From Clostridia bacterium (GTDB lineage: Bacteria > Bacillota > Clostridia > UBA1381 > UBA9506), in contig JAFYXI010000048.1 in the NCBI GenBank assembly GCA_017546245.1, positions 1-55,957 on the forward strand: 55,957 nucleotides of DNA, given 5' to 3'. Shown here one piece after another: positions 34,630-55,512 of this stretch. The translations under genes and the position numbers were made by a program. The notes under the pieces were generated by a model. The model saw nothing but the letters and a program-made list of their open reading frames with translations, had not been told where the DNA came from and did no database searches. Every line of letters starts with the position of its first letter. Position 1 is the stretch's first letter.

Positions 34630-34659
34630 GGCGGCATATATTTAATTTATTATGCCGCC
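34630..34659 (-). other. 9-bp hairpin before the SLH gene
   Basis: GGCGGCATA and TATGCCGCC enclose a 12-nt AT-rich loop in the 89-nt gap. There is no U-tract on the minus strand, so a processing or stability element is more likely than a terminator. Confidence 0.45.
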
Positions 34660-34696
34660 ATTTTAATACAACATCCCGTTATGTTATTTGCGTACA

Positions 34697-38272: not shown

Positions 38273-38346
38273 AGTTATACCCCTTTTCTGACAATATCGA
38301 CAAATCTTTTGCACAGCTTGTTTTAATTTACAGAACAAGTACCCTG

Positions 38347-41300
38347 CTAATTAAAAGAATAAAAACCGTTTTGGTTAAATACATGCATTTCGCAAAGCGG
38401 TTTAAGCTCTGCAGACCATATATAAAACTCAATTTTATCAGCATCGTTTTCAATATTTTCATCAAATTCAAAGCTGGTTTTATTCGATGACAGAATATTT
38501 GATTTTACCTTAATTAGCTTATTGCCGGCATCTTTGATTGCAACAAAACCATATGCTGTTTCATATTGTTCTAAAAGTCTCTCATCAATTTCAACAACAC
38601 CTTTTATGCGACCTTTTTTGATTACATTTACAGGCTCGTCACTTTCATCTGTAATAATTGCTGATACATCTGGTTTTTCAGCTGTAACAGTAACCGAAGT
38701 ACTGCCAACAATCTTTCTGCCCCACGCATCCTTTATTTGCGGCAACGAAATTGTGTAGCTTTCGCCTATAACAGTTTGAGATAAACTTACACTAACTGTA
38801 GTTTCTCTGCTTATTTCATCAGTATGTATTACAACATCCACACCATTTTCTGACACAGCACCATTTAATAATACCTTGTCAGGTGTTACACTCCACTTGT
38901 CTACATCATGTGAAAAGCAGAATACAATCGGTTCACCTGTTGTAAATTTTCCGTTTATACCTCCAGTAATACTTTTTGTAAAAACGTTAAACGGCGGTAT
39001 TTTTCGCAAACTAACATCATCCATATATACCCTTTTTTCTGTAGCAGCTGTCTGCGTTATATAAAAATAAACATCATTAAGATAATCCGATTCGCCTAAA
39101 TAATACGAGCTCCCGTCAATATCATTATATTTGTTAGCTGCTATGTTACTTTCTATATAATTCCAATCAGAAGTTAATGCAAAAGATGCGTTTGACTGTT
39201 GAAATAAGAATTCGCATCCGCTGTTATGCGTTTTCAAATTGTTGTTATTATCCCACACTTGATATTTGGCTGCAAAACTCATAGACTTATTGTTATCATC
39301 AACATTTTCATTTTTAAGCCATCCTGAAAAATGATAATCTGAATATGGCTCTAACTGAGCTTTAAAACCTAATCTTTGATACCTTTTGGTATAATACTTA
39401 TATACACTTGTATCGCCGCTGTGAGATACAGATTGGCTTATGCCAATACCGCCTTCTGTACCGCCCCAAAAGCTATCTATATATTCGCAGTCAGAATCAG
39501 TAACCATATTACGATATATCCATTTGCCGTCTGCGTCTATATCTTTATTGGTATTATAGCTTATTTCAGGAAAAAACTTTCTTGCATTCATGCTTATCGT
39601 TGCAGTTTGCTGATTATATTCATATTCATTATAAAAGGCCTCGGCAACCGAACGGAGAGGAATTAAATAAGACTCCGCCGCTCCTTTTAGCTCCCCATAA
39701 TTACATATCTGTTCGCCGTTTCTGTATACATCACCATTTTCATCAAAACGAATAACATCAACATCAGTCACAAAAACAACTTCGTTTGTATCGGATAAAT
39801 ACGAAACGTTTACACCAAAACAATCAGCAATATCATTCATTTCTGCGTATAATTCACTGTCATACTTCTGTATCGGAGTATTGGTGTTTATTAAGTTTCC
39901 TTGTACATACCAATAAGGTCTGTCCGAAGCCTGCCCACGCAACAGTTCAATTTTTTCAATTTCAAACTCACCCTTTGAATTAATGCAATCAAGCCTTAAC
40001 TGATAAAGCGTGCCGCAAAAGTTTTCATCCTGCCACACAGGAATATAAATTTCTTCCCATTGTCCACTTTTGCCTGCATTTGAATAAATCATTCTGCTTT
40101 CTTCGTAATTGGCATCTTGCGTACGTCTGTAGTATACATTAACCTTAGAATCAGTTGCCGTTCTTTTCATCCTGATTTTTATATAATTAATATTTTTTAA
40201 ATCAATATTCAGTCCTTTAGGTGAAAGAATCGCCGGGTCTTCTCCACCCGAGACTGCCTTATAGATGCCATTATTACACTCTGTTTGTATAACTTGTTTG
40301 TTTATAATCCATGTATCATATATTTCCTGTCCGCTCCAGCTCGCGGCAACTTCTGTGCCTACAGGAACGTTAATTTTTTCTATGGGTTTTGGTTTTCTTT
40401 CTCTCGGATAAAGTGTTCCAAGATGTGCTTTTTCTTTTTCGTCAGGAATTACGTCCTGATGAACCTCTTCTGTCGAAAAAACCTCTCGGATTGCATCCAG
40501 ATAATCAAAACCGCATTTTCCGGAAGGCATAATATAATGTCCCTCTCCGAATTCATTCCAGTTATCCAAAAGAACAACTGTTTTTTCTCCGTTCGAATAA
40601 TAGTTTTCAGTATCAGAATCTATATATTCAAGCACCTGCTTAAAGTTTTCAGCAGACAGCATTTGTCCCGATGCACGCCCCCACGGAGTTTCATCTAAGC
40701 CTACGCTGGCTACCGGTATTAATCCCATTTCAGCAGTTTTTGTATTTGAAACAGCTCTTTGTAAATATCCCTTCTGTGTTTCAGGATTATTGGAAATATC
40801 TCTCCAAGTATAAGTATGAACTGCATCAAATCCAATAGATTTTTCCAATACAATCTCATCTAAAGCAGTATTGCATCCTAAAATACAAGCGCCCTGATAA
40901 CCTAAAGCTATACATTGCTGACGCAGGTAGTCAATACACTCTTGCGCAAGAAGCAAAGCTTCTTCATCACTTTGACAATCGCTTCTTATTGCCTCTAAAA
41001 AAACCTTAGGACTATATATGCTTATTACCGCATTGCCATTTATCTGATAATAACGCGCATCTTTTAAGTAATGTTCAACCCAGTATGGAACAATATCATT
41101 TTTAAATATATCGGCAGTAATATTATTATTGGTTGAATTTTCCCACATAATTGCAAAGTCGATTGCCTCAGAATTATCCGCATAAAAATATCCGTTCTCT
41201 AAGGCTTGAGCTCTTGGTGTTTTTATTGCTCCGCCATCATAGGGCGACGGTAAAAACCAGCAATGCATCTGCCAGTTTATTCCATGCTCCGCTAACCATT

Positions 41301-42693
41301 TAATTTCCCAGTTGGCTACTGCTTCATTTCCATCATCATAAAATCCTAAATACGGATGATTATCAGCATAAGGCAAAATATAGTCCCAACCTACATGAGA
41401 GCCTTCGCGCCATATATCACATCTCATAATACCTGCATCATATTCTTCAGAGACTGCTTTGTTGGTATCCGGAACATTTTGGGCAGCAGGTGTGTAGACT
41501 AAAATATCATCTATCACCAACGAGGCGGAATTGCCGTTTATTATCTTAAATTTATTAATTTCTGCACTTTTGCAATAAATATTTTTTATAAGCTTGCCAT
41601 TTAGCCAAATTTCTGCTAACTCGCCGTATTCTCTTACTGAAACGTTATACCATATACCCGCAGATAAAGACGATATGCTTTCTTCATTCAGGTAAAATAT
41701 CCCATTACTGCAGCTAAAATTATAAATTTGCTCTTCATCATCTAAAAACAACATATTTGCCGTTCCCTCTGATGCCAGAAAAGAAAATTCGTAGCTTTTG
41801 CTATATGTGTCAAGCTTTGCAAAAGTTGTACTTACCGTTGTGCTATTACCTATGCTAAGGCTATAAATATCAGGATTAGATGAATTGTCAGAACTAACTA
41901 TTTCAGCCTGCCCTGTACAATCCCAGTTTTTAGGAAGACTTCCCACAGCTCCGGCTGATAAAAAACGTTGATTTATACTGTAGTCAGCATACACTTTTAC
42001 AAAATTAACATCTGTTTGTATAACTGCTGAAGATGTTGTGCCAAAGCAAACTCCGTCAACACCGGATACATCAGCATTTGCTATAACAGAGGTTTTACCG
42101 TTTATGCTGACCGTAACCGCATTATTGTCTATATCAACTTCCATCAATATACCAATACGTTCATTGGCTGATGCGGTTGTATTGTAAACTCCCAGCTCTG
42201 TTATTGCACCCGAATTGGTGTATAAATATATACTTTTAATTCCGCTTCTTATTTCCGCTACGGTCTCACCTCCATAGGTCAGACCTATGTTAAATCCTTC
42301 TTTTCGATAGCTCAAAATAAACGCAGTTTCCATCGTAACTTTTCCTTTTGTTCTGCGATTTAATTTTTTGCTTGCTTTAACAGGAGCCAATTTACTTTTA
42401 TCATTTAAACGCACTCCGTTAAGATTGCTGTAAACAACCTCGCCGCCGCTTTTGTCAAAATCCCAACTGCTGATTGGTGCTATCTGTTCTGTTTCTTCAT
42501 GCCTGAAATTGTCATCTGTTAAATAAATTGATTCTTCGCTTTCATAAAGCTCTATTTCTGAAATATTATACATTTCATCAGGACAAAGCTCTGAATCCTC
42601 TGCATACACCTGCGGCAAAACAGAAGTCAACACAGCAACCAACATAAGTAAGGTTACAATTTTAAATTGCCACATAGATTGCATAGTTTTCAT
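38347..42693 (-). CDS. Large secreted GH99/WbsX-like multidomain protein (1448 aa)
   Basis: The protein has a signal peptide (MKTMQSMWQFKIVTLLMLVA), beta-sandwich domains, and a GH99/WbsX-like barrel (about 420-760: MRCDIWREGSHVGWDY, IMWENSTNNNITADIF, WVEHYLKDARYY, DNWNEFGEGHYIMPSG). A CBM-like domain and a copper-amine-oxidase-N-type module (about 950-1070) follow, then a CBM module like those of the next two genes (TDSDCEYIDSFWGGTEGG) and an Ig-like domain (IKDAWGRKIVG). AGGAGG lies 9 nt before the ATG. It shares the whole barrel layout with the downstream paralogue but has extra C-terminal glycan-binding modules. Secreted endo-acting glycan cleavage is the likely role; the bond is unknown. 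Confidence 0.76.
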   Translation of the reverse strand: MKTMQSMWQFKIVTLLMLVAVLTSVLPQVYAEDSELCPDEMYNISEIELYESEESIYLTDDNFRHEETEQIAPISSWDFDKSGGEVVYSNLNGVRLNDKSKLAPVKASKKLNRRTKGKVTMETAFILSYRKEGFNIGLTYGGETVAEIRSGIKSIYLYTNSGAITELGVYNTTASANERIGILMEVDIDNNAVTVSINGKTSVIANADVSGVDGVCFGTTSSAVIQTDVNFVKVYADYSINQRFLSAGAVGSLPKNWDCTGQAEIVSSDNSSNPDIYSLSIGNSTTVSTTFAKLDTYSKSYEFSFLASEGTANMLFLDDEEQIYNFSCSNGIFYLNEESISSLSAGIWYNVSVREYGELAEIWLNGKLIKNIYCKSAEINKFKIINGNSASLVIDDILVYTPAAQNVPDTNKAVSEEYDAGIMRCDIWREGSHVGWDYILPYADNHPYLGFYDDGNEAVANWEIKWLAEHGINWQMHCWFLPSPYDGGAIKTPRAQALENGYFYADNSEAIDFAIMWENSTNNNITADIFKNDIVPYWVEHYLKDARYYQINGNAVISIYSPKVFLEAIRSDCQSDEEALLLAQECIDYLRQQCIALGYQGACILGCNTALDEIVLEKSIGFDAVHTYTWRDISNNPETQKGYLQRAVSNTKTAEMGLIPVASVGLDETPWGRASGQMLSAENFKQVLEYIDSDTENYYSNGEKTVVLLDNWNEFGEGHYIMPSGKCGFDYLDAIREVFSTEEVHQDVIPDEKEKAHLGTLYPRERKPKPIEKINVPVGTEVAASWSGQEIYDTWIINKQVIQTECNNGIYKAVSGGEDPAILSPKGLNIDLKNINYIKIRMKRTATDSKVNVYYRRTQDANYEESRMIYSNAGKSGQWEEIYIPVWQDENFCGTLYQLRLDCINSKGEFEIEKIELLRGQASDRPYWYVQGNLINTNTPIQKYDSELYAEMNDIADCFGVNVSYLSDTNEVVFVTDVDVIRFDENGDVYRNGEQICNYGELKGAAESYLIPLRSVAEAFYNEYEYNQQTATISMNARKFFPEISYNTNKDIDADGKWIYRNMVTDSDCEYIDSFWGGTEGGIGISQSVSHSGDTSVYKYYTKRYQRLGFKAQLEPYSDYHFSGWLKNENVDDNNKSMSFAAKYQVWDNNNNLKTHNSGCEFLFQQSNASFALTSDWNYIESNIAANKYNDIDGSSYYLGESDYLNDVYFYITQTAATEKRVYMDDVSLRKIPPFNVFTKSITGGINGKFTTGEPIVFCFSHDVDKWSVTPDKVLLNGAVSENGVDVVIHTDEISRETTVSVSLSQTVIGESYTISLPQIKDAWGRKIVGSTSVTVTAEKPDVSAIITDESDEPVNVIKKGRIKGVVEIDERLLEQYETAYGFVAIKDAGNKLIKVKSNILSSNKTSFEFDENIENDADKIEFYIWSAELKPLCEMHVFNQNGFYSFN

Positions 42694-42739
42694 TTAACTT
42701 TTCCTCCTGTAAACAGTTCTTATTATTTCAACATTTATA

Positions 42740-44110
42740 TTAATATTCGCTTTTTATAAGTCCATCTTTGCCAAAAGTTGTATAAGGAACTATCGGCGTT
42801 GGAAAGTCTGAATTTGTCCATATAAATACACGCATATACTCTGCGTTTTCTGAATTTATCGGAATTAAAACAGCATTTTCGCCAGACTTTTCTTCACCGT
42901 CAGCCAGACTTAATGAGGTGTGACTTATCTTTGCTATCGTTCCGTTTGCAATTGCTGCCACTACTACTGTTACTTGTTGTTCCTCGTTGCTTTTCAGTTC
43001 TATTTTTGCGGTTAAATCACCTTGTTCAAAGCTTGCAATGTCTGTTCCATTCTTTTCAAAAGAAATTTTTTCTTCTAATATCGGCTTTGTGATAAAAGAT
43101 ATTGTAGTTTTACCTTCTACCTCACGTCCCCATGCATCCTTAAGCTCCGGCATGGATATGGTATACTTATTTCCGTTTTTTAAGTTATTCAGATTTAACG
43201 AAAGCACGGTCTTACGATTGCTGCCGTTCGGCATCTCAACTGTTGCTGAACTAATTACGTTACTGTCAGGTATTCCATTTACCGTAATTTTTTCTTTACG
43301 AACCGAACGCGGATCTATATCCAATGAAAATGCAAATTTAACTACATCTCCGTCCTGCAGAATAACTGAAACGTTTTCATCCGTCATATCGTTTTCTTCT
43401 GTTCCGGCAACAACTGACATAACTTTACTGCTTGGCAAATCTTCGCCCGGAATTTTGCGCATGCTCCAATCGTCAATATAAAGATCCTGAATGTAGGTTG
43501 TTGACCCATTTGTAGCAGTTGCCGTCATACCGTAGTCTGCACTTTCTGCCAAATTTGCAATTCCTATCTGAACAGAGCCGTCAGCTTTTACTCCGCCGAT
43601 TCTTACTTTTGTATCGTAAAGTGTCCACACATTATCTTCAGTAATTTCAATAAGTGTTGACAGATTTTTTTTAGATTCTACATATCCTTCACCGGTTCCC
43701 CAGTTTTCAAAAACACCTATTCTTGCCTTGCTGCTTTCTCCCAAAAAATCTGTCTTTATCATCGCGCTCATGCGATAAGCCTGTTCAGAAGTTACTTCCA
43801 TATTCATTGCATTAAATGCAATTCCACGATAATGTGAAGATTTGCGATACAAACCACTGCCATAATATCCATCCGGTACTACAGAAAAATTACCTTCTGT
43901 ACCGGTTCTGTCACTTCCTCTATTGATAAATCCTGCAGAAGTTTCACATTCTGAATCCGGCACCAATTCTCTGTATTCCCATGTTTCTGCCGTAACACCC
44001 TCCGGCAGAATATATGCCTCAGGAGTTGTTGCCAAAGCCGTTGCTGGCATTATAGCTACAAGCATAATTATTGTTAAAAATGCTGCACTCACTCTTTTAT
44101 ATAAATACAT
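42740..44110 (-). CDS. Secreted glycan-binding-type protein, one CBM plus Ig-like module (456 aa)
   Basis: The protein has a signal peptide (MYLYKRVSAAFLTIIMLVAI, cleavage near ALAT), a jelly-roll CBM4/9-like domain (about 45-225, with ELVPDSECETSAGFINRGS at its start and YIDDWSMRKIPG at its end), an Ig-like domain (SLDIDPRSVRKEKITVNG, ELKDAWGREVEG), and a beta-rich C-terminal domain (MRVFIWTNSDFPTPI). It is a paralogue of the 748-aa protein, which carries this module twice. No anchor is visible. A soluble or loosely bound glycan-binding protein that feeds the importer is likely. AGGAGG precedes the ATG. Confidence 0.7.
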   Translation of the reverse strand: MYLYKRVSAAFLTIIMLVAIMPATALATTPEAYILPEGVTAETWEYRELVPDSECETSAGFINRGSDRTGTEGNFSVVPDGYYGSGLYRKSSHYRGIAFNAMNMEVTSEQAYRMSAMIKTDFLGESSKARIGVFENWGTGEGYVESKKNLSTLIEITEDNVWTLYDTKVRIGGVKADGSVQIGIANLAESADYGMTATATNGSTTYIQDLYIDDWSMRKIPGEDLPSSKVMSVVAGTEENDMTDENVSVILQDGDVVKFAFSLDIDPRSVRKEKITVNGIPDSNVISSATVEMPNGSNRKTVLSLNLNNLKNGNKYTISMPELKDAWGREVEGKTTISFITKPILEEKISFEKNGTDIASFEQGDLTAKIELKSNEEQQVTVVVAAIANGTIAKISHTSLSLADGEEKSGENAVLIPINSENAEYMRVFIWTNSDFPTPIVPYTTFGKDGLIKSEY

Positions 44111-44137
44111 AACAAGTAATCCTCCTATAAAATAGCA

Positions 44138-44190
44138 TCATTCTTTGACCACTCCCACGGTCATACTGATAACATCCTTTGAAAAAAATG
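44138..44190 (-). pseudogene. Vestigial C-terminal tail of a sugar ABC permease
   Basis: Just upstream of the 456-aa gene the minus strand reads FFSKDVISMTVGVVKE followed by a stop. This matches the intact permease's end (FFQKYFVKGMTVGAVKG); about 18 of 22 nt agree around ATGACCGT. No start or upstream body is present. It looks like the scar of a duplicated [permease - surface protein] unit whose permease was deleted. Confidence 0.55.
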
Positions 44191-44204
44191 AATATAAATT
44201 TATC

Positions 44205-44238
44205 TTAGTGTCGCTGCCAAGTATGGCAGCGACACTAA
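44205..44238 (-). other. Strong intercistronic hairpin, 15-bp perfect stem
   Basis: TTAGTGTCGCTGCCA and its exact complement flank a 4-nt loop, 7 nt after the 748-aa gene's stop codon. The minus-strand sequence that follows (GATAAATTTATATTC) is only mildly U-rich, so it may be a partial terminator or a 3'-end-protecting hairpin that boosts the importer genes over those downstream. Confidence 0.65.
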
Positions 44239-44245
44239 ATACATA

Positions 44246-46492
44246 TTAATTCTCTATTTCTTCTATAATCGGTTTAAAGTCGCTGGTCCAAAGATAGAAT
44301 ATTATTTTATCTCCGTCCTCATAGTCTGCAAACGATCCCGAAAGTGCTGCATCTGCAGCTGTTGCATCAGGAATCCACACAACCTGTTCAAGACCTCTGC
44401 CGGAATTCTTTAAAGCGATTGCTGCTACCCAGTTTTCACCGGCCGGTTTAATTTTGTTAATTACATAACTATATGTATTGCCGTTTACAGTTGCCGAAAT
44501 TTCAGGAACTGTAAAGGTTGCTGCCTCTACGTTTGATAGTTCTCTGCCCCAGGCATCTTTAATGCCCGACGGCAAGGTAACAGTATATTCTTCACCAACA
44601 GCTGTACCGCTAAGAGTAACTGAGAGAGTTGTTTTTCTTGTTATTTCGTCTGTAGAAACCTCAACATTGCTGACAGTTGCACCACCGGTTACAGTTATAT
44701 CTTTAGCCTGTGCTGTCCATTTATCAATATCTTTATCAAAATAGAATTCAACTGTGCTGCCCTTTGCAGAATAGCCCTTTGCATTAACAGTCCAATCAGG
44801 AATTAAACGAATGCTCCAATCGTCAACATACATTCTGTCAACTATTCTGTTGTTTATATCGTTAGCTGTAGCACCCGTAACAGAATCCAGGTTATTTGAA
44901 AGTCCTATCTGCATAGGCTTAGGATTAGATATACCTGCATCTGCTGCCTTAACGGCATTAGCAGGTATTGTAAATGTTCCTTCAAAACGTTGCCAAGTAT
45001 CATTTACATAGAACTGCGGACTTCCGGAAATCCAGCCTTCAGTTACATTGTATTTTGAACTGCTTGTGCTATACACATAGTAGTTGCCAAGAAACGGTCT
45101 GATTGGCATTGTGTCGGTTTCTCTGATAAGGTCTGAGCGAAGATATGCAGAAATATGGAATGTTTTGCCTGCTTCAAATATATCATCTTTAAATCCTACG
45201 CCGGCATACTGTCTTGCTGTACGCGCAATACTATAGTTACCGCTATGTGCATTTTCTGAAAGCTCAATGCTTGTCTGTAATGTAGAAGTAGAATCAGAAG
45301 ATGCTCTGTTTTCAAAACCGGTCAAAGTTTCACATTCTGAATCCGGCACTAATTCTCTGTACTTCCAAAGTCCCGAACTATCTAAATCATCATTGATTGA
45401 ATACGGTTTTTCTGCAGCAGTCATAACATAAGCAGCTGCATTTCCGACAACCTCTCTTCCCCATGCATCCTTTAAGCCGTCGAAAGAAATATTATATATA
45501 GCACCTTCAGCCATATTTCCTAACATTAAAGTCAAAACTGTACGACGAGTTGTTCCGGTCGGTTCTGTAAGTACAGCAGAGGTAATAATATTGCTGTTTG
45601 CCGTGCCGTTTACTAATATTTTTTCTTTGCGTACCGTGCGCGGATCAATGTCAAGCGTAAACTCAAACTCTACCAAATTACCATTCTTGACTGTAACGGG
45701 AGCTTCGCTGTTATTGGCTGCACTTGCTTCTGTTCCGGCTTTAACAGATATAATTTCACTTGCAACATTTGCAAAATCGCCTGTCGGCACTTTACGTATG
45801 CTCCAGTCGTCTACATACATTGTATCAACAATACGGTTATTAACCAGGTCATTAGCTGTGCCGCTAGACTGATTGTATGCTAAGCCAATTTGGGTTAAAG
45901 CGCCGCTGGATGCAGAAGCGTTAGATGAATTTAAAAACGCAGTCGGAATTGTAAATGTTCCTTTATACTCTTTCCAGCTGTTGTCAACGCTCCATTCAGT
46001 ACTTCCCGATATGAAACCTTCTGTTCGGGTATATGCAGTTACAACGCCCTCTTCCTCTTTGGCTACACTACTTATGTAGTTTAAAAACGGTCTTATTTTC
46101 ATAACAGCGTCGCCTCTTATAAGGTCTGAACGCATAGCTGCAGAAACATTATAAGTTGCCCCAGCTTCAAATCCTGCGGTTCTGAAGCCTATACCCGTAC
46201 TGTATCTGGCAGTACGCTTAAGACTGCTTTCTCCATAGTTTTTATTTACAGAATCTAACACAACATTTGTTTGTAAAGTCGGTGCTGCATCAGAGCTACC
46301 TCTGTTTTCAAAACCAGTTAAAGTCTCGCACTCTAAATCAGGCACTAATTCTCTGTATTCCCAAGTATCTGCCGTAACACCGTCAGGCAAAGCATACGCC
46401 TCCGGTACAGCTGCAAATGTTGACATTGGCAACACAGCAACAAGCATAAGGATTGCTATAAATGCTGCTCCGAATTTTTTTACATAATTCAT
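44246..46492 (-). CDS. Secreted glycan-binding-type protein with two CBM/Ig-like modules (748 aa)
   Basis: The protein has a signal peptide (MNYVKKFGAAFIAILMLVAV, cleavage near TFAAV). Two tandem copies of a CBM4/9-like plus Ig-like unit follow: copy 1 at about 41-360 (RELVPDLECETLTGFENRGS ... LKDAWGREVVG) and copy 2 at about 385-660 (RELVPDSECETLTGFENRAS ... IKDAWGRELS). A short C-terminal beta domain resembles that of the 456-aa and 1448-aa proteins (IIFYLWTSDFKPI). The copies are alike even at DNA level near 45310-45370 and 46308-46362, which points to recent internal duplication. It lies 31 nt after the second permease gene and probably captures glycan for it. Confidence 0.72.
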   Translation of the reverse strand: MNYVKKFGAAFIAILMLVAVLPMSTFAAVPEAYALPDGVTADTWEYRELVPDLECETLTGFENRGSSDAAPTLQTNVVLDSVNKNYGESSLKRTARYSTGIGFRTAGFEAGATYNVSAAMRSDLIRGDAVMKIRPFLNYISSVAKEEEGVVTAYTRTEGFISGSTEWSVDNSWKEYKGTFTIPTAFLNSSNASASSGALTQIGLAYNQSSGTANDLVNNRIVDTMYVDDWSIRKVPTGDFANVASEIISVKAGTEASAANNSEAPVTVKNGNLVEFEFTLDIDPRTVRKEKILVNGTANSNIITSAVLTEPTGTTRRTVLTLMLGNMAEGAIYNISFDGLKDAWGREVVGNAAAYVMTAAEKPYSINDDLDSSGLWKYRELVPDSECETLTGFENRASSDSTSTLQTSIELSENAHSGNYSIARTARQYAGVGFKDDIFEAGKTFHISAYLRSDLIRETDTMPIRPFLGNYYVYSTSSSKYNVTEGWISGSPQFYVNDTWQRFEGTFTIPANAVKAADAGISNPKPMQIGLSNNLDSVTGATANDINNRIVDRMYVDDWSIRLIPDWTVNAKGYSAKGSTVEFYFDKDIDKWTAQAKDITVTGGATVSNVEVSTDEITRKTTLSVTLSGTAVGEEYTVTLPSGIKDAWGRELSNVEAATFTVPEISATVNGNTYSYVINKIKPAGENWVAAIALKNSGRGLEQVVWIPDATAADAALSGSFADYEDGDKIIFYLWTSDFKPIIEEIEN

Positions 46493-46523: not shown

Positions 46524-47441
46524 TTAACCCTTGACCGCCCCTACGGTCATTCCCTTTACAAAGTACTTTTGGAAAAACGGGAACACAACTAATATAGGTC
46601 CCGCAACCGCTATACACATAGCCATCCGTGCCGAAAGTGTTGGCATCGACTGCCCGTTGCTGACGATTCCTGCTTCAAGCGCCTCGGGTGAGTTTAAATA
46701 TTCAATATTCTTCATAATCGACATTAAAAGGTATTGCAGCTTTACTTTTTCAGGCGATTCAATATAAAGCATTGAAAAATACCACTCATTCCAGTAATTT
46801 AAAAGCAGCAACAATCCAACGGTAGCAAATGCCGGCTTTGATATAGGCATTACAATTCTGACAAATGCCGAAAACTCACCTAATCCATCTAATTTTGCCG
46901 ATTCTATCAGTTCTGTAGGTACTCCCATAAAAAAGCCCTTCATCAACAGAATATTCCACGCGCTGCACACGCCCGGCAAAATTAAGGCAAATATATTATC
47001 CTTAAGCTCGAGCCATCTTGAAATTAATATGTAGGTAGGAACTAAGCCGCCGTTAAACAGCATTGTAAAAAATACATAAAACGATAATATTTTTCGATAT
47101 GCATAATCCTTACGACTCATTACATATCCACAGCTGGAAACAAATGCAAGACCGCATATTGTTCCTATTAAGGTTGTTATGATAGTTACTTTATATGCAT
47201 CTATCAGTCTTACCGGATCAGCAAAAAGCATTCTATATGCATTTAATGTAAACTCTGCCGGTAACATACGATAACCGCTACGCATAATTTCTTCCTGCGA
47301 CTGGAACGAAGAACCAAGAATAACCAGGAACGGATACAAACAGCATACGGACAATATAATAAGCAGAACATGCATAAAAACATGTATTACTTTTTCTCCG
47401 GTAGATAAAATATCTCCATCTCTTAATCTTTTTTTCGCCAT
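46524..47441 (-). CDS. Carbohydrate ABC transporter permease (LplC/YesQ type)
   Basis: The 305-aa protein has six predicted membrane helices and the ATPase-contact EAA loop IESAKLDGLGEFSAFVRIVMPISKP. It ends with the standard KGMTVGAVKG of LplC-like CUT1 permeases. It is the second half of the importer channel. ATG at 47441 was chosen; a GTG three codons earlier is the alternative. It lies 14 nt after the first permease gene. No ATP-binding gene accompanies it, as is usual for Gram-positive CUT1 systems that share one MsmX-type ATPase. Confidence 0.92.
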   Translation of the reverse strand: MAKKRLRDGDILSTGEKVIHVFMHVLLIILSVCCLYPFLVILGSSFQSQEEIMRSGYRMLPAEFTLNAYRMLFADPVRLIDAYKVTIITTLIGTICGLAFVSSCGYVMSRKDYAYRKILSFYVFFTMLFNGGLVPTYILISRWLELKDNIFALILPGVCSAWNILLMKGFFMGVPTELIESAKLDGLGEFSAFVRIVMPISKPAFATVGLLLLLNYWNEWYFSMLYIESPEKVKLQYLLMSIMKNIEYLNSPEALEAGIVSNGQSMPTLSARMAMCIAVAGPILVVFPFFQKYFVKGMTVGAVKG

Positions 47442-47455
47442 AATATCCACCCTTC

Positions 47456-48427
47456 TTAAAACAACGCATTGTCAGGACTGATTTTTCTTACAATTAAATT
47501 AGTCACTACAACCAGAATAAAGCCCAACACTGCCTGATAAAATCCTGCTGCCGAGGACATACCTATATCTCCCAGGGTAATTAACGCTCTGTAAACATAT
47601 GTATCAATAATATCTGTTGTAGAATATAAAAGCGATGAATTAAGTGTAAAATTATAAAACAATCCAAAATCACCGTAGAAAATTTTACCTACTTTTAAAA
47701 TAGTCATAATGATAATCATAGGCATTATACTCGGAATGGATATATACCAAATCTGCTTAAATTTTCCTGCTCCGTCAATTTTGGCCGCCTCGAACAATGA
47801 CTTATCGGTGCCCATAAGCGCAGCATAATAAATAACACCGTTATAACCCATACCCTTCCATATTTCTGCAATTATTAAAATTGCAGGCCAATAACGCGGA
47901 GCGTTATACCATGCTATGGGTTCTTTACCGAATGCAGAAAGAAGTTTATTTAACAATCCGTAATCTATATCTAAAAATACTCTTGCCGCATAAGCTGCTA
48001 CAACCCATGATATAAAATACGGTAAAAACAATAATGTTTGATAGCCTTTAACAAATCTGCTGCTCATTTCAAACAACATCAATGCGATTACAACAGCCAC
48101 TATCGTACCCAATACAATAAACACAAGATTATATAGAATTGTATTACGCGTAGCTATTGTTACTGCTTCATTGTCAAATAAAAACCTGAAATTTTCTAAC
48201 CCTGCCCATGGACTTTTAAAAAAACCAAGCTCGTAGCTATAGTTTTTAAACGGAAGTATTAGTCCATACAGCGGAATATAACTAAAAATAAACAGAAAGA
48301 TAACAGAAGGTAATGCCATGGCTGTAAGCGGAAAATTCTTTTTAAAAGTTTTCCACTTGATTTTTTTGCTGCCAATTAGTCTGTTTTCTTCTATATATGA
48401 CACATTTTTTTTACTGATTTGCGCCAT
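47456..48427 (-). CDS. Carbohydrate ABC transporter permease (LplB/YesP type)
   Basis: The 323-aa protein has six membrane helices, the LplB-type start (LTAMALPSVIFLFIFSYIPLYG), and the EAA loop FEAAKIDGAGKFKQIWYISIPSI. It partners the second permease. ATG at 48427 was chosen because AGGAG lies 8 nt upstream; the frame runs 10 codons further (MAKLSKGASA), which lacks a ribosome site. In B. subtilis the similar YesOPQ importer takes up rhamnogalacturonan fragments. Confidence 0.92.
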   Translation of the reverse strand: MAQISKKNVSYIEENRLIGSKKIKWKTFKKNFPLTAMALPSVIFLFIFSYIPLYGLILPFKNYSYELGFFKSPWAGLENFRFLFDNEAVTIATRNTILYNLVFIVLGTIVAVVIALMLFEMSSRFVKGYQTLLFLPYFISWVVAAYAARVFLDIDYGLLNKLLSAFGKEPIAWYNAPRYWPAILIIAEIWKGMGYNGVIYYAALMGTDKSLFEAAKIDGAGKFKQIWYISIPSIMPMIIIMTILKVGKIFYGDFGLFYNFTLNSSLLYSTTDIIDTYVYRALITLGDIGMSSAAGFYQAVLGFILVVVTNLIVRKISPDNALF

Positions 48428-48482
48428 TGCGCTCGCTCCTTTACTTAGTTTTGCCACAATTGTTTTTTAACGAGCTTTATGC

Positions 48483-49952
48483 TTATTTACCATTAGCTAC
48501 TTTCCACTCAGCGTATTGTTTATTTGCCTCAGCCATAACAACATCAATACCTGCATCCTTAAGCTTGCGCTTAGCATCTGCTAAATAGCTGTCAAAGTCT
48601 TCCATGCTGCCGGTAGCAAAGATACGCTCATACTCACCTTTAACAGATGTAACCTTTGCATATTCACTCTTAACCGGTTCTGCATTAAAACGGAAACCAA
48701 GACCTTTTGATACAGGCGCTACCAAGTTTGCCTGTTCCATCTCGTCAAGTGCTTCTCTGCGATTCCAACCGGAATCCCATTGCTTCCAGAGCGGACCGAA
48801 CCAGTTATGCCAAATTCCCCATGTTTGTGCAGCTCCGCTGTTTGGAATAACGGATTTTTCTCCGATTTCAGCAGAACGTTCTTCGTCAATTTTATAGTCA
48901 ATTCCTTCAACACCATATGCTAAAGTGTTTAAAAGGTAATCGTCTTCCCAGACAATGTTTAATACTTCTAAGGCTTTTTCAGGCATCTCTGATGTATCAC
49001 TTATACAGTTTATAGATGCACCGCCTGTAGTTATTATCTGTGAACCCATTGGAGCTTCTACACACGGGAAGCCATAAGCGGCTGTTGTCTTAGAGCCATC
49101 CTCTGAATAATAACCGGTATCACTCATAACTGCATATTTGCCGGATTTACATTCAGTTAAATATTCTGTTCTTGTGCTGGCATCCTTTGGAATATAACCT
49201 GCCTTGTAGTATTTATGCTTTAAGCGATAAAGTTCTTCATATTCATCAGTTTCTAAAAGCGGTACATATGTTTCGGTTGTTTCATCAAAAACCAAACCGC
49301 TGATTGTTACATCGCTGTATCGTTCGCTAACCTTATTAGGTGTTTGATATAAAAGCGGATACATATCAGGTTCATTTTCTTTTATAGTTTGTAAATATGG
49401 TTCCAAATCAGCTAAACAAGTAACACTCTTATAGTCAAAATTATATTTTTCTACAAGTTCCTTGTTAAATACGATGGCAGGCTTTCTTGAAAATACGCCA
49501 TAGCCTTTTATTCCCCAAATTTTTCCGTTTACTCTTGCCATGTCCCACATAAATTCTGTTGCCATAGCTTTTATTGTAGGTGCATGTTTATCCAAAAGTT
49601 CATCTGTAATTTCTACAAATGCCCCATTTTGAGCACCTCTTGTGTACTGGTCTGCCTGACTCATGAACGCAATATCCATTTTATCTCTTGAGGATAATAA
49701 TACATTCATTTTTTCTGCATAACTTCCTAAGTCAATTAAATGCAAATCCAGTTTTACACCCAGTTTCTCTTGAATAATTTTGTTTGCCTCTGCCATAACG
49801 GATTCTTTACTGGTTGCCTTTTCCGTCGGGTTTTGCATATACCAGTGAACCGTACTGCTGCCACCGTTAGCAGCTTCATCCTTTGAGCATGCAATCAGCG
49901 GCAATGACATAGCGATTGCCAAAAGTAAAGCTAATATTTTTTTGCTTTTCAT
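48483..49952 (-). CDS. Extracellular sugar-binding lipoprotein of the ABC importer
   Basis: The 489-aa protein has a lipoprotein signal peptide with lipobox LIAC and acylation at Cys22, then a two-lobe solute-binding fold (HWYMQNPTEKATSKESVM..., GSYAEKMNVLLSSRDKMDIAF). The C-terminal region resembles LplA/YesO and the DUF3502-containing group. It delivers an oligosaccharide to the two permeases. It is the first gene of the long operon, with GGAGG upstream and the shared 42-bp box and TATAAT in front, and is probably the most strongly expressed product. Confidence 0.92.
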   Translation of the reverse strand: MKSKKILALLLAIAMSLPLIACSKDEAANGGSSTVHWYMQNPTEKATSKESVMAEANKIIQEKLGVKLDLHLIDLGSYAEKMNVLLSSRDKMDIAFMSQADQYTRGAQNGAFVEITDELLDKHAPTIKAMATEFMWDMARVNGKIWGIKGYGVFSRKPAIVFNKELVEKYNFDYKSVTCLADLEPYLQTIKENEPDMYPLLYQTPNKVSERYSDVTISGLVFDETTETYVPLLETDEYEELYRLKHKYYKAGYIPKDASTRTEYLTECKSGKYAVMSDTGYYSEDGSKTTAAYGFPCVEAPMGSQIITTGGASINCISDTSEMPEKALEVLNIVWEDDYLLNTLAYGVEGIDYKIDEERSAEIGEKSVIPNSGAAQTWGIWHNWFGPLWKQWDSGWNRREALDEMEQANLVAPVSKGLGFRFNAEPVKSEYAKVTSVKGEYERIFATGSMEDFDSYLADAKRKLKDAGIDVVMAEANKQYAEWKVANGK

Positions 49953-49975: not shown

Positions 49976-50042
49976 ATTATAGCATTTACCCACAACAAAA
50001 AAAATGTACGCATTTCGTTTTTTTGTCATAATTTCATAAAAA
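49976..50042 (-). promoter_or_regulatory. Promoter plus 42-bp shared box of the importer operon
   Basis: TATAAT (49981-49976 on the minus strand) has no recognisable -35 hexamer at 17 nt. Starting 20 nt upstream, 50001-50042 is identical in 38 of 42 positions to 55471-55512 ahead of the glycosidase gene, at the same spacing. Within it, ATGAAAT...GACA and ACGAAAT...TACA form an imperfect direct repeat about 19 nt apart, as AraC-family activators use. Confidence 0.75.
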
Positions 50043-50088
50043 CACAAATTTTTTTCTGAATTATTTACTAAAATAAATAAAGCGCCTG

Positions 50089-50118
50089 TTTAGAAAAACA
50101 GGCGCTTTAACGCACGGA
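50089..50118 (-). terminator. Strong terminator of the two-component operon
   Basis: AAAGCGCCTGTTT and AAACAGGCGCTTT form a 13-bp perfect stem with loop AGAA, followed on the minus strand by ATTTATTTT. It lies 13 nt after the sensor kinase's stop codon and insulates the importer promoter. Confidence 0.9.
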
Positions 50119-50131
50119 TGTAATAAATATG

Positions 50132-51829
50132 TCATTCTAACGGCAATTCCAGCCGAATTTCAGTAAATTCATTTTGCTTACTCATAATAGCAATGCCGTA
50201 TCCATTGCCATATTGCAAACGTATTCTTCGATTTATATTGGCAAGTCCTACAGCACGATTTGTATAGGGACTTTGGCTGCTGCTGTTAATTTCAGATAAC
50301 AGCTTTATAAGCTTTTCTTCAGACATACCGCCTCCGTTATCAAAAAATTCCACAACCAGCTTGTCGCCATCGGCATATCCTTTTATTTTTAATAAACCTC
50401 TTCTGCCACAGTCAACAAATCCATGCTTTACAGAATTTTCTGCAATAGGCTGAAACAGCATTCTGAGAGTGCGTTTATTCCATACATCATCATCAAAATC
50501 GAGTTCTGTATCAAAGCTATCAGGAAACCTGTTACGCATAATTGACAGATAATCCTCTAAAATACCTATTTCCTCACCTACTGTCGATTCTCTGTTGCCA
50601 TCCATTGAATAACGAAACATACGAGATAATGATTCAACCATATCAACAACTCGGGTTGCGCCGTACAGCATAGCCACCGCACTCATACATTCTAAAGTAT
50701 TATATAAAAAATGAGGATTTATCTGGCTTTGCAAAGCATAAATCGCCGCTTCTTTATTGCTCAGTTCTAATTCATATAACTCCTGTTGCGTATGAACAAC
50801 CTTGTGGAAAAGTTCTTCAGATTTGTCTAACATAGTATTTATATGTTGTGACAAAGTTTCAAACTCCGACAACGAATTAGATACCTTTAGTCTGTTGCGT
50901 GTATTATGTAAAATAGAATTATCTACAAAATGTATAATAGTTGACAATGGTTTTCTGATTAATTTGTTTAATAAAATAAACTGTACAACAACCAGCAACA
51001 GAACAAGCACAATCAACTCGGTCATAACAATCATAATCATATGATACACGCTTGAAGTTTGATTATCAAACACCATTGCACCGGATACTGTCCATGATGT
51101 TCCGGCAATATCGTGTTTGGATTTTAAAGAAATTATTTCACCTTGTAATTCTTTCATAAAATTAGCTTCTTTGCCACCAATAAAGTCTGTCAGCATGATA
51201 CCTACTTTATTTGTATAATCCATATCTTTCAGCAGCCTGAAGACATTAACACGATTAATAACAATTGCTGTACCGGCATTTACAATACCAACTTCCTGCG
51301 TGTTATGAAACTCAATAGGGCTAAAATTACATATTCCCAATTCATAATAAAGTCCCCCGGGTTTTGTAAAGAAAAAAGATTTTTGTTTTTCTCCTTCTTC
51401 TTTGTACTGCTGATAAAAAGTTGTTATTTCACCAAATTCATCATTATCAACAGTATTTAAAAACGTGTGAAACTTTTCTTCTTTTTTATCTACCAGCACT
51501 ACACTTACCGAATCAGAAAACAAATAATCAACAGATGATAATTCATCGGTAACCCTTATTTCGTCACCGGACGAAATCTCGTTGTTTGAATTAACCAAAT
51601 ATTGCCACACACAATCATTGTTTTGCAGATACTTGGAGATGTTATAAAGAGTTTGCATTCTCTCTTCAATCGTAAGCGCCACACTTGTAACAATACCGTC
51701 TATCGTTTCTTGTTTTTGCTCGTCAAACATACGAAACATTACAAAAATGCCTACCAGCTGAAAAATAACAATAATAACAGAAACACCTATAACCATACCG
51801 AAAATCATTTTATTAAGGCTTAGTTTCAT
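50132..51829 (-). CDS. YesM-type sensor histidine kinase
   Basis: The 565-aa protein has a membrane helix (about 8-33), a Cache-like extracellular sensor region (to about 270), a second membrane helix (about 270-295) and a HAMP-like linker. The His_kinase domain follows with INPHFLYNTLECM (phospho-acceptor His) and a HATPase with FQPIAENSVKHGF and FFDNGGGMSEE. It phosphorylates the partner regulator in response to an external sugar or to the binding protein. The start is ATG 51829 or an ATG three codons earlier; neither has a strong ribosome site. It follows the regulator gene by 38 nt. Confidence 0.92.
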   Translation of the reverse strand: MKLSLNKMIFGMVIGVSVIIVIFQLVGIFVMFRMFDEQKQETIDGIVTSVALTIEERMQTLYNISKYLQNNDCVWQYLVNSNNEISSGDEIRVTDELSSVDYLFSDSVSVVLVDKKEEKFHTFLNTVDNDEFGEITTFYQQYKEEGEKQKSFFFTKPGGLYYELGICNFSPIEFHNTQEVGIVNAGTAIVINRVNVFRLLKDMDYTNKVGIMLTDFIGGKEANFMKELQGEIISLKSKHDIAGTSWTVSGAMVFDNQTSSVYHMIMIVMTELIVLVLLLVVVQFILLNKLIRKPLSTIIHFVDNSILHNTRNRLKVSNSLSEFETLSQHINTMLDKSEELFHKVVHTQQELYELELSNKEAAIYALQSQINPHFLYNTLECMSAVAMLYGATRVVDMVESLSRMFRYSMDGNRESTVGEEIGILEDYLSIMRNRFPDSFDTELDFDDDVWNKRTLRMLFQPIAENSVKHGFVDCGRRGLLKIKGYADGDKLVVEFFDNGGGMSEEKLIKLLSEINSSSQSPYTNRAVGLANINRRIRLQYGNGYGIAIMSKQNEFTEIRLELPLE

Positions 51830-51867
51830 ATTAATCATCTCACTTTCAGTGCAGCAAATACGACTAA

Positions 51868-52602
51868 CTATACATTTTTTGAATTTCTATATTGTTTTGG
51901 CGTCATACCAAAATACTTTTTAAACAGCTTATTAAAATGATAATAATCATATCCGCAAAGTTCGGCTATTTTGTTTGTTGAAAATTTATTTTCCAAAATC
52001 AGCTCAGCTGCCATATCCATACGACATTTTAATATGTATTTGGTAAAACCGCATCCAAAATTTTTATTAAAAAGATAACAACAATATGTCATATTTATTC
52101 CAAATTTTTCTGTTAATTCATTAAGGTAAAGCTTCTCGCAAAAATGTTCATCAACAAAAGAAATCAACTTATTAAACGCAATATTATCGCTGCTTGTAAT
52201 TTTATACATTTTTGTTATTCCGTTTTCTTCATCCAATGTTTCTTTAAGATTTTCTAAAAGACAATCTGCATTTTCGCGGGTAACAGGTTTTAACAAATAC
52301 TCAAAACAACCATAGCTTATAGCCTTTTGTGCATATTGAAAATCAGCATATCCGCTAATGATTACAAACTTACATTTTGCACCGGATTTTCTGGCCTTTT
52401 TCATCACTTCAAGACCTGACATTCCCGGCATATTTATATCTAACAAAACAACATGCGGAGACTCTTTTTCAATCAGTTCAAGCAGATTTTCAGGAGAAGA
52501 TGTATCTGCAACCAACGAAAAACCATATGCTTCCCATTGAAAAATATTTTTAAGTTTATACAAAATCAACGGCTCGTCATCTGCTATAATTACTTTATAC
52601 AT
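51868..52602 (-). CDS. YesN-type response regulator (REC + AraC HTH)
   Basis: The 244-aa protein has an N-terminal receiver domain (MYKVIIADDEPLI, phospho-acceptor Asp55 in LLDINMPG, Lys in LLKPV) and a C-terminal AraC-type two-helix-turn-helix (FGINMTYCCYLFNKNFG, KIAELCGYDYYHFNKLFKKYFGMTPKQYR as landmarks). YesN proteins are usually longer, since they carry a middle region between the domains; this one is nearly minimal. It should activate the importer operon and the glycosidase gene through the shared 42-bp box. The ATG at 52602 has GGGCGG 8 nt upstream. Confidence 0.92.
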   Translation of the reverse strand: MYKVIIADDEPLILYKLKNIFQWEAYGFSLVADTSSPENLLELIEKESPHVVLLDINMPGMSGLEVMKKARKSGAKCKFVIISGYADFQYAQKAISYGCFEYLLKPVTRENADCLLENLKETLDEENGITKMYKITSSDNIAFNKLISFVDEHFCEKLYLNELTEKFGINMTYCCYLFNKNFGCGFTKYILKCRMDMAAELILENKFSTNKIAELCGYDYYHFNKLFKKYFGMTPKQYRNSKNV

Positions 52603-52628
52603 TAAATTCACCGCCCGAAATTCGTTAT

Positions 52629-52656
52629 TTTATATTAATAAGCTTTACTAAATCAA
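52629..52656 (-). promoter_or_regulatory. Probable promoter of the two-component operon
   Basis: TTGATT (52656-52651) with a 16-nt spacer and TATAAA (52634-52629) on the minus strand. It is the best candidate in the region but not strong. Confidence 0.4.
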
Positions 52657-52743
52657 GTATTGGTAATATAATCACATTCTCTTATGTTGCAATTATAAAA
52701 TTGATGAACATTTTAGATGCCGCAAAATTATTTTACCAGGAGT

Positions 52744-52771
52744 AAAAATGCTTGCTTGCAAGGGCATTTTT
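52744..52771. terminator. Hairpin with A/T-flanked stem, possible bidirectional terminator
   Basis: AAAAATGC and GCATTTTT pair around a loop containing CTTGCAAG. T-runs lie at the 3' side on both strands. It could end transcription from the glycosidase gene before the two-component promoter. Confidence 0.5.
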
Positions 52772-52782
52772 GCGACGCCGTC

Positions 52783-52863
52783 AATTGACACAGTGCTCGA
52801 AAGAGCACAAAAGAGCGTTAGCTCTTAAGAATTTTATGAAATAAAATTCTGTATGTGTCAATT
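52783..52863. repeat. 81-nt four-way-junction palindromic element
   Basis: An outer 10-bp stem (AATTGACACA 52783-52792 with TGTGTCAATT 52854-52863) encloses three hairpins: GTGCTC-GAAA-GAGCAC (52793-52808), AAGAGC-GTTA-GCTCTT (52811-52826) and a 10-bp AT stem (52828-52837/52841-52850). All arms are perfect. It is not a tRNA: there is no anticodon loop, TPsiC or CCA-type pattern. Likely a non-coding interspersed repeat; the rest of the 316-nt gap holds only the promoter and hairpin listed. Confidence 0.75.
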
Positions 52864-52927
52864 ATAACATAAATGTTTTTTTAATGCAATGCATATAATT
52901 TCCTGTAAAAATCACTATTCTATATCT

Positions 52928-55411
52928 TTAAGCATCATAAAATCTTAACAGCGATTCACAATTAATAATTTTTTCTAAAACCATATCTGCACTGTAATAA
53001 TAATGATTTGCTGCTTCAAAACCTACCTCTGGGCGCCGACACATAATTTTATATACTTTTTCTGCGATATCTTTTTCGTCGTTAACTAAAGTAAGAATTT
53101 CTTTCTTTATATCCGAATTTTTACTTTTTAAATATTTATCCCTTAAACGAACAAATCTGATTTGATGATAAGAAGAACGGAACAACGAATATGCCACATA
53201 TGCTATATCAGGCAATTCGTCTTTCATATCTCCTAAAATTTCTATTCCCTTAAACCATTTTTCGCTAAGAAGCTTAAATTGTTTTTCAAAAATCTCAGCA
53301 GGATAAATAGAGCGCCAACTTTCTAAATCATCATAACTAAAACAAGTCATAGTTGCTTCATAACCTGTTGGCTTGCTGTAAAATATATTCGATACGCCAC
53401 CGTTTTGCGGTCCTAAGTACAAAACCTGAATATCAAACGGAAATTCACTAAAGGCTTCGCTAAATACATCTGTTGCTTTTTTTACTTTAGGAGCATCTTT
53501 ACCATACATAATTTTAAAACTGTTTGTATAATCAGTATTATTTTCTCCGTTTTCTATAAAAAACGCTTCTGCAATCAGCTTAATATTAGGCGAGGGATAG
53601 CCTCCCAAAGTCCAGCTCAGCATCAAATGATCTATTTGTAATTCTTTTAAATTCTCTATTTGTCGTATCAAACTTGCAAATACAGGTAAATATGGCACAG
53701 TTGAGCATTCCCAGCTATTATTAATTTGCAGTTTAACAGCTGTTTCACGTCCTGCTTTTTTTGCCATTTGCCAATTAGCTAAACTTACAGAGCTTATGCC
53801 ATCTACAGATATGGAATAATCTTTTACGCGACCTTCTATGCCGCCTCTGACAAATGGTATACCGGTCTCTCTTTTACATAAAACTGCTGTATTTTCAGGC
53901 AGCGCATTAATACATTTTGATATTTCATTCTGAGTAAATCCGAAGTTTTCTGTCCACGCCCAATCCCATGCCAAAACCCGTATACCCTGATCAATTCTGT
54001 GTGCCCCTTCTTCGATCAGACGATTAACCATCGAGGCAAGCTCCCACGGTTCTTTGTCTGCACAATCAGGACATATGCTTTCTGATTTAACAGATTTACA
54101 GTGAGTCAAATTTTCAGACATCGTAATTGTAAAAAATCCTCCCAATCCCGGAACAGCTCTGCATAATGATTCTACAGCATTTTTCAGATAATTTTGTGTT
54201 TTTTCTAAGCTTAAACACATGCAAGCATTATTACCCAAAACCGTGCCTTTCATATCAGGATATTTTTCGAAAAACGAAAGAGGCATACTTCTTGGCTCAT
54301 TAAGATAAAGGTAAATTTTTATTCCATAACTTTTAGCGCGTTTAACCAATTCTTTCAAGTTTTTCTGTCTTATTTCCCATCCTTGCGAGAACGAGGGGGC
54401 GAACAGAAATTCAGTCAATCTGTACAATACTGCATGGAGCCATATCCCATTAACGCCTGCACGCGCATATTTTTCTAAAAGTACATCAGGACAGTAGCTT
54501 CGACTGTCCACATCAAAAGCACCTTCATACAAAGCAGAAAACGGGTATATATATCGCACAGCAAAACGTGGCGAACGTTTAATCACACCTAAATCAAAAT
54601 ATGCTCCCCCGCTTTTTTTAGCCAAATCTTCAAGTCTGTATAATCCACGCACTATCCCGGCACCAGAGCCTGCTTTAATTGTAATTTTATTTTCCAAAAC
54701 TGTAATTTCGTGATATTCTTCTACCTGGTTTTCAATATAGGATAAAACAATATTTTTATTTCCTTCAGACTGCAAATCTATATTCCAGCAGTTCTTCACA
54801 TCATTTATAAAACGTTTAACCATTTCTGCAACTGTAGTATCGTTAGTCATATCTGCGATACACCAATCGTCGTCTAATACCACTTTATCTTTCGGCTGTA
54901 CATTTATATGCGTTACTGTATCTTGTTCTTTCCAAAAGTCAAATGGTTGTTTTTCTTCATTTACAGTCGTTCTGACATTTGTTACAATGTTTTTTATTCT
55001 TTGTGTTAATTCAAGCTCTTTCTGAGTTAGTTCGCGATATATAACCGGCTCACATTCAGGCTTGAATCTTCCGAGCTTTATATCTAAAAAATCTTCTTCT
55101 TTTAAAATTAATGCAAGCTTTTCCTCTGTCCAATCAAGAAGCTTTAAAAGCTGCTCATATGGCAGCAAGTGCCAATTAGCTCTGATTATTGTAATATATC
55201 CTTTTTCGTTCCATAATTTTGCATTTCCTTGTTCTTTTAGTCCCATTCGTTCAGCTTGAAGCACTACATTGTCAACATTGGTATTAAGCACTTCTGCTAT
55301 TTTATATTTAGACACCATATTCCAGTTACGAAAAATAAATGCTTGCATAACGGTGGGAAAATACTCGGGTAATAATGGCAAATTCTTTATTTCAGGCAAT
55401 GATATTTGCAT
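52928..55411 (-). CDS. Glycoside hydrolase, GH20/DUF4838-like TIM barrel (827 aa)
   Basis: There is no signal peptide, so it is cytoplasmic. An N-terminal helical region of about 150 residues looks HTH-like (FRNWNMVSKYKIAEVLNTNV). A zincin-like beta/alpha domain follows (about 205-280, GAGIVRGLYRLEDLAKKSGG), as in GH20, GH67 and GH84. Then comes a TIM barrel (about 285-640) with RYIYPFSALYEGAFDV, SYGIKIYLYLNEPR, FFTITMSENLTHCK and ICPDCA. The Asp-Glu pair typical of GH20 is not obvious, so a beta-hexosaminidase is only one option; DUF4838/alpha-glucuronidase-like is another. AAGGAG precedes the ATG. It has its own promoter with the shared 42-bp box, tying it to the importer regulon. Confidence 0.68.
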   Translation of the reverse strand: MQISLPEIKNLPLLPEYFPTVMQAFIFRNWNMVSKYKIAEVLNTNVDNVVLQAERMGLKEQGNAKLWNEKGYITIIRANWHLLPYEQLLKLLDWTEEKLALILKEEDFLDIKLGRFKPECEPVIYRELTQKELELTQRIKNIVTNVRTTVNEEKQPFDFWKEQDTVTHINVQPKDKVVLDDDWCIADMTNDTTVAEMVKRFINDVKNCWNIDLQSEGNKNIVLSYIENQVEEYHEITVLENKITIKAGSGAGIVRGLYRLEDLAKKSGGAYFDLGVIKRSPRFAVRYIYPFSALYEGAFDVDSRSYCPDVLLEKYARAGVNGIWLHAVLYRLTEFLFAPSFSQGWEIRQKNLKELVKRAKSYGIKIYLYLNEPRSMPLSFFEKYPDMKGTVLGNNACMCLSLEKTQNYLKNAVESLCRAVPGLGGFFTITMSENLTHCKSVKSESICPDCADKEPWELASMVNRLIEEGAHRIDQGIRVLAWDWAWTENFGFTQNEISKCINALPENTAVLCKRETGIPFVRGGIEGRVKDYSISVDGISSVSLANWQMAKKAGRETAVKLQINNSWECSTVPYLPVFASLIRQIENLKELQIDHLMLSWTLGGYPSPNIKLIAEAFFIENGENNTDYTNSFKIMYGKDAPKVKKATDVFSEAFSEFPFDIQVLYLGPQNGGVSNIFYSKPTGYEATMTCFSYDDLESWRSIYPAEIFEKQFKLLSEKWFKGIEILGDMKDELPDIAYVAYSLFRSSYHQIRFVRLRDKYLKSKNSDIKKEILTLVNDEKDIAEKVYKIMCRRPEVGFEAANHYYYSADMVLEKIINCESLLRFYDA

Positions 55412-55445
55412 ACAAATCTCCTTTTATACATATAAATCTTTTAAA

Positions 55446-55512
55446 ATTATAGCATATAATTTTTTATTAAAAAATGTATACAATTCGTTTTTTTGTCATA
55501 TTTTCATAAAAA
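55446..55512 (-). promoter_or_regulatory. Promoter plus 42-bp shared box of the glycosidase gene
   Basis: TATAAT (55451-55446 on the minus strand) followed upstream after 20 nt by 55471-55512, 38 of 42 positions identical to 50001-50042. Both promoters also share GCAT just before the -10 box and lack a -35 hexamer. Confidence 0.75.

Follow-up and report, generated by a model that had tools for sequence, protein, structure and literature searches.

Many YesMN-type pairs are present in glycan-using Clostridia, and to our knowledge the operators of these clostridial pairs are rarely known. The locus studied here raises the question of whether two nearly identical boxes, placed at the same distance from two promoters on either side of the genes of such a pair, mark a hidden regulon, and which regulator would bind them. 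The window, i.e. the whole stretch of DNA that was analysed, is a contig (C22) of 55,957 nucleotides from a Clostridia bacterium, whose genome (2.03 Mb in 73 contigs, 96.7% complete) was searched along with it.

Two promoters of the window share a box and lack a -35 element

All genes of the cluster lie on the minus strand, in the order box 2, hydrolase, response regulator, histidine kinase, terminator, box 1 and an operon that starts with the gene of a substrate-binding protein (SBP). Both boxes are upstream elements on this minus strand, which corrects the original prediction. Box 1 (50001..50042, minus strand, with the core ATGAAATTATGACAAAAAAACGAAATGCGTACATTTT) is a predicted activator operator of the SBP operon, and box 2 (55471..55512, minus strand, core ATGAAAATATGACAAAAAAACGAATTGTATACATTTT) is its predicted counterpart at the hydrolase gene; the two match at 38 of 42 positions, as originally counted. 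The size of the box is quoted here as 37–42 bases, and its footprint in the mechanism proposed below would be roughly 33 bp. Boxes 1 and 2 form the best non-coding 42-nt gapless pair in the window, equal or higher scores being reached only by repeats inside coding regions.

Each box is followed by an extended -10 element, TGCTATAAT, located at 49976..49984 in the SBP-operon promoter (TATAAT at 49976-49981) and at 55446..55454 in the hydrolase promoter (TATAAT at 55446-55451), both on the minus strand. After alignment on TATAAT the spacing proved identical in the two promoters, as had been claimed, the gap to TATAAT being 19 nt when counted from the box end and 23 nt when counted from the last base of the TACA core. 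The reported absence of a -35 hexamer was also borne out, since the hexamer found at the standard spacing, 17 nt 5' of the -10, is TTTTTT in both window promoters and in the third box promoter described below. With the proximal box end 23 nt before TATAAT and no good -35 in any of the three promoters, the box would terminate at the position of a class II activator. The GCAT said to precede TATAAT is indeed common to the two window promoters (ATGC on the transcribed strand), but the third site has ATGG, so that the conserved part is the TGn of the extended -10.

A site for an AraC-type dimer is expected to hold two half-sites in direct repeat, spaced by about two turns of the helix. The imperfect direct repeat that had been noticed in the box does not rise above chance, as the likeness at period 19 amounts to 8, 6 and 7 of 13 positions in the three boxes (column-shuffle p = 0.28). 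Inverted-repeat symmetry was not found in the box either (best 40% of pairs), which speaks against a LacI/GntR-type operator. An exploratory scan for direct repeats at the class II position of 103 upstream regions gave 12 matches, a modest excess over the 4.3 ± 2.0 found in shuffles, and the window's own boxes did not pass it. Direct repeats were seen at two SBP promoters of other genomes: upstream of 8971 (minus strand) at locus L152 of G001, a member of the same genus (ACTTGAAAATCGG / ACTTGAAAACGGG, period 21, 25 nt before TACAAT), and upstream of 9387 (minus strand) at locus L195 of G218 (CAAATAGTATAG / CAAAAAGTACAG, period 20, before TATAAT). Judging from their sequence, these repeats are candidate operators of other such regulators.

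The box occurs once more in the genome

The genome-wide search suggested with the original prediction was carried out and yielded one more box. Allowing up to three mismatches, the core was found at three sites in the whole genome, i.e. boxes 1 and 2 and positions 19783-19807 of contig C65, and the backwards pattern used as a control at none; looser versions of the core gave, genome-wide, extra matches only at or below the control level. When the core was combined with TATAAT at the fixed distance, the three sites were the only ones without mismatches, and the backwards control gave one weak match. Box 3 (C65:19783) reads ATGAAAATATGACAAAAAAGCGAAATGCGTACATTTT and is followed by TGGTATAAT at the same distance, 23 nt separating core and TATAAT. 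It precedes the gene for a 418-aa sugar-type oxidoreductase of the Gfo/Idh/MocA family (PF01408), and the contig stops just past this gene. The box was also looked for as a random or repeat-borne sequence across the genome and is neither, which together with the third site at the same TATAAT distance supports the reading as a hidden regulon. That the box promoters share a regulon is well supported.

Orthologues of the oxidoreductase in other genomes lie in operons in which homologues of the window's regulator-kinase pair or transporter were not found, so gene context gives no independent tie of box 3 to the pathway. One of these loci has a divergent, weak AraC-domain homologue.

Genes downstream of the window boxes

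Box 1 heads a glycan operon of 17 genes and 26 kb, on a single strand and with gene gaps of at most 135 nt, which consists of the SBP, two permeases and 14 further genes down to 23771. The first target gene (48483..49952, minus strand) encodes a sugar ABC transporter substrate-binding protein with a DUF3502 C-terminus (PF12010) and is followed by the two ABC permease genes (46524..48457, minus strand; PF00528 twice). The rest of the operon (23771..46492, minus strand), as annotated with Pfam and NCBIfam, encodes CBM/Big_5 proteins, two WbsX-family giants, an SLH protein, GDSL, sugar isomerase-like and Gfo/Idh/MocA proteins, an AAC(3)-like acetyltransferase and a PIG-L deacetylase, and its last gene encodes an L-rhamnose mutarotase (NCBIfam equivalog, above cut-off). 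Given the mutarotase, the WbsX giants, the SLH protein, the deacetylase and the acetyltransferase, a glycan with rhamnose and an amino sugar is a reasonable guess for the substrate. Box 1 is set apart from the kinase gene by a strong intrinsic terminator with a 14-bp perfect stem (50078..50109, minus strand), which probably makes the SBP operon a separate transcription unit.

Within the operon, between the genes for proteins of 748 and 456 aa, the minus strand of 44111-44245 forms a 15-bp perfect RNA hairpin (fold z-score -5.1). It may mark a transcript end or a processing site and thereby reduce expression of the genes that follow. Elsewhere in the window, a cobalamin riboswitch (Rfam RF00174, 35.8 bits; 20498-20736, minus strand) lies just 5' of a large surface-protein gene (16021-20295) and the same-strand genes after it.

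Box 2 precedes a gene (52928..55411, minus strand) for an 827-aa protein that matches no Pfam or NCBIfam family and that its predicted structure identifies as a glycoside hydrolase with a GH20/GH84/GH67-like fold and a conserved extra N-terminal helical domain. In the AlphaFold model (pLDDT 84, 8 sequences), residues 172-827 match the GH84, GH20, GH67 and GH138 folds, with a VIA Z of 22 to GH84 and a Foldseek E of 2e-16 to GH20. The N-terminal 170 aa form the conserved helical domain, again with no Pfam match, in which KIAEVLNTNVDNVVLQAERMGL looks by eye like a helix-turn-helix. At least seven homologues are found within the taxonomic order, and two paralogues are encoded in this genome, on contigs C16 and C3, with no box found upstream of either.

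Several further elements surround the hydrolase gene. About 185 bp between it and the regulator gene (52692-52874) have a 93% identical counterpart close upstream of the hydrolase paralogue of contig C3 (L190:4626-4810) and form a small repeated intergenic element; a plasmid search with the intergenic region 52612-52927 gave no match. Upstream of box 2, the segment 55528-55817 holds a 22-nt perfect inverted repeat (AAAGGAGCTGTAGCAAAATGAA) with an extra copy at 55528-55547, and resembles the end of a small mobile element or a terminator-like repeat. Beyond it, a gene 3' end cut by the contig end (55838-55956, minus strand) encodes some 40 C-terminal residues that by eye are like glucosamine-6-phosphate deaminase; this very short piece has no Pfam match.

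The likely binder of the box

The regulator gene (51868..52611, minus strand) encodes a YesN-type response regulator with a receiver and an AraC-type HTH (PF00072, PF12833 and PF00165, all above cut-off), whose phospho-acceptor Asp58 and Lys108 are invariant among homologues. Its length is 244 aa, as originally given, when counted from an ATG, and 247 aa from an alternative GTG. The adjoining gene (50132..51838, minus strand) encodes a 568-aa YesM-type sensor histidine kinase with PF06580 and HATPase_c (PF02518) at 82.8 and 35.4 bits, above both cut-offs, so that by domain content the pair is a YesM/YesN-type system. We regard this regulator as the best candidate, and a likely one, for the binding of the box, because two of the three boxes lie in its own gene cluster with the PF06580 kinase, and because the loci of orthologues from three other genera carry boxes of their own at that position of the promoter.

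The closest homologues of the regulator belong to another family of the order (43-51% identity) and not to the same genus or family. Regulator orthologues adjoin orthologous transporters in several genomes, with permeases 58-73% identical; regulator, kinase and orthologous permeases/SBP occur together in G072 and G076, and permeases with regulator/kinase genes in G084. The foreign family of the closest homologues, several of them beside orthologous transporters, suggests that the locus has moved horizontally. The window box itself was not found in the loci of these homologues, nor in about 465 other genomes (100 relatives, a 95-genome order set and 391 class genomes), where the search returned two matches with two mismatches, no more than the backwards controls. 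A weight matrix of the box, run on the loci around homologues of the regulator, the SBP and the hydrolase, gave a best foreign score of 16.6 versus 52-55 for the true sites, so the homologous genes elsewhere lack the window box.

Three genomes of three genera (G072, G045 and G041) instead have a conserved block of their own at the equivalent promoter position, in register (33/45 and 29/45) and at constant distance from the -10. The TTGA of this block is followed by 19 nt to the -10; a pattern built from the block after inspection mainly picks up ordinary TTGA-17-TATAAT promoters once two to three mismatches are allowed. The boxes of the relatives have this -35-like TTGA at their end, and those of the window do not. 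Among these boxes only that of G041 shows an evident direct repeat, of period 20, and it stands before two promoters of the cluster, one of which precedes a WbsX-family gene, a type also present in the window operon. The two G041 promoters have the spacer in common as well and may have arisen by promoter duplication. A pair of promoters around a YesN-type regulator, with a common box at a fixed distance, thus occurs again with another box sequence. Among the regulators the second HTH helix is near-constant, and the first differs between the window regulator and the group of G041, G045 and G072, which would fit partly diverged operators. As the orthologues' boxes differ in sequence and the window box is in none of the other genomes searched, box and regulator cannot be tracked together by sequence.

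A different assignment would accept a real common operator but give it to another YesN/AraC-type or to a LacI/GntR-type regulator, its position at the regulator-kinase pair being incidental. The genome does encode many regulators of the same family (27 scored homologues), so that the assignment to 51868-52611 rests on position and on the comparison with orthologues. A protein scan of genome contigs returned homologues with best-segment identities of only 29-43%. Box 3, moreover, is on a different contig, where no YesN gene was found in the ~20 kb upstream of it, the direct repeat in the box is not significant, and its half-site period of 19, versus 20 in an orthologue's box, counts against the window regulator. 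We nevertheless consider this assignment unlikely, given that two of the three sites are inside the gene cluster of the regulator, that the orthologous regulator loci carry analogous boxes, that the box lacks the symmetry of a LacI/GntR-type site, and that a position at about -36 in promoters with no -35 fits an activator. An AraC-type activator probably uses the box as its operator and would thereby switch on three units; the most likely such activator is the YesN-type regulator encoded at 51868-52611 in its phosphorylated form.

Conservation versus copying or chance

The original prediction had allowed for functional conservation or a recent copy, and only the former agrees with the distribution of identity around the three boxes. 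Pairwise identity between the three promoters is 86-88% in the box and 73-80% in the extended -10 (TGnTATAAT), falls to 27-55% in the spacer between them and is 20-37% in the outer flanks on either side, where the identity beyond the functional elements expected of a duplicated or mobile promoter segment is absent. Because identity is confined to the box and the -10 while the flanks are random, we interpret the box as a conserved operator and not as a copied segment; read from the alignment, such islands of conservation at a fixed distance are what selection leaves behind when it acts on a protein-binding site with its promoter. That a promoter segment was recently duplicated, or that the box is part of a mobile repeat, with no common regulator behind it, might be suspected in a genome that holds other intergenic repeats, such as the 185-bp element described above, but it is highly improbable, since identity drops sharply at the edges of box and -10, the spacer is poorly conserved and there are only three copies, each at the same distance before a promoter. 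A duplicated promoter segment, for which a longer common segment would be needed, is refuted by this island pattern. Chance likeness of A/T-rich upstream regions, which the A/T-rich box with its poly-A run might bring to mind, is practically negligible, as 43 of the 62 columns upstream of the -10 are identical in all three TATAAT-aligned promoters, against a mean of 7.6 and a maximum of 21 in 20,000 simulated sets of the same composition, the backwards controls yield no match or one weak match, and the genome has no equally good further sites.

Proposed activation and comparison with known systems

Under the preferred reading of the box as an activator operator, the YesM-type kinase may sense an extracellular glycan signal and phosphorylate the regulator, which would bind the box of roughly 33 bp with its promoter-proximal end at about -36. 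The bound regulator would substitute for the absent -35 contact and recruit RNA polymerase to the extended -10 (class II activation); activation is presumed here rather than repression. The units co-activated in this way would be the 26-kb SBP-transporter-WbsX-rhamnose mutarotase operon behind box 1, the GH20/GH84-fold hydrolase gene behind box 2, with possible read-through into the regulator and kinase genes, and the unlinked oxidoreductase gene on C65 behind box 3. It is conceivable, although we propose it only tentatively, that the regulator uses an unusual, compact operator with a half-site period of 19, an extended -10 and no -35. The sequence of this operator would have fully diverged from the orthologues' boxes at an unchanged promoter geometry, and the regulator would have recruited the unlinked oxidoreductase gene. 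If so, the locus would let one trace how regulator and operator diverged together once it had been transferred between families.

A short, unambiguous operator would link the 17-gene operon, the hydrolase and the unlinked oxidoreductase as one testable regulon, and the fact that orthologous loci keep this promoter geometry points to an easy route to the operators of other such pairs.

Similar systems have been described in related bacteria. The AviRS, MosSQ, BxgRS and AxeRS systems of Caldicellulosiruptor bescii resemble the window in having a kinase and an AraC-type response regulator beside a CUT1 transporter, and their predicted sites lie upstream of promoter elements, which was interpreted as activation; these sites are described as tandem repeats with large spacers (PMC8579813), whereas the repeat in the window box is not significant and the box sequence was found only in this species. 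In Ruminiclostridium cellulolyticum, CuaR recognises the region upstream of the transporter gene cuaA (PMC5663094), and XydR binds adjacent as well as unlinked targets, including Ccel_1656, on which it acts as the window regulator would on the gene behind box 3 (PMC3572039). XydS/XydR and CuaDSR are cases in which an AraC-type response regulator activates adjacent glycan genes, as proposed here (PMC3572039, PMC5663094), although the work on XydR, which has 532 aa versus 247 aa for the window regulator, did not establish a clear consensus box, and the regulated genes differ (PMC3572039). XuaDSR of the same species governs, as a single two-component system, the transporter operon next to it as well as a gene far away, much as proposed for the window, but its authors found no conserved sites in the co-regulated promoters, whereas the box is clearly shared here (PMC12175519). 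When compared by protein sequence, PDB entries 6swf, 6swb, 6swi and 3lsg ('yesN'), which are structures of domains from AraC-type response regulators, are among the best receiver/HTH matches of the window regulator. The regulon therefore belongs to a known kind, that of AraC-type response regulators, with a box sequence that is new and species-specific; the case is ordinary in kind and useful as a clear operator.
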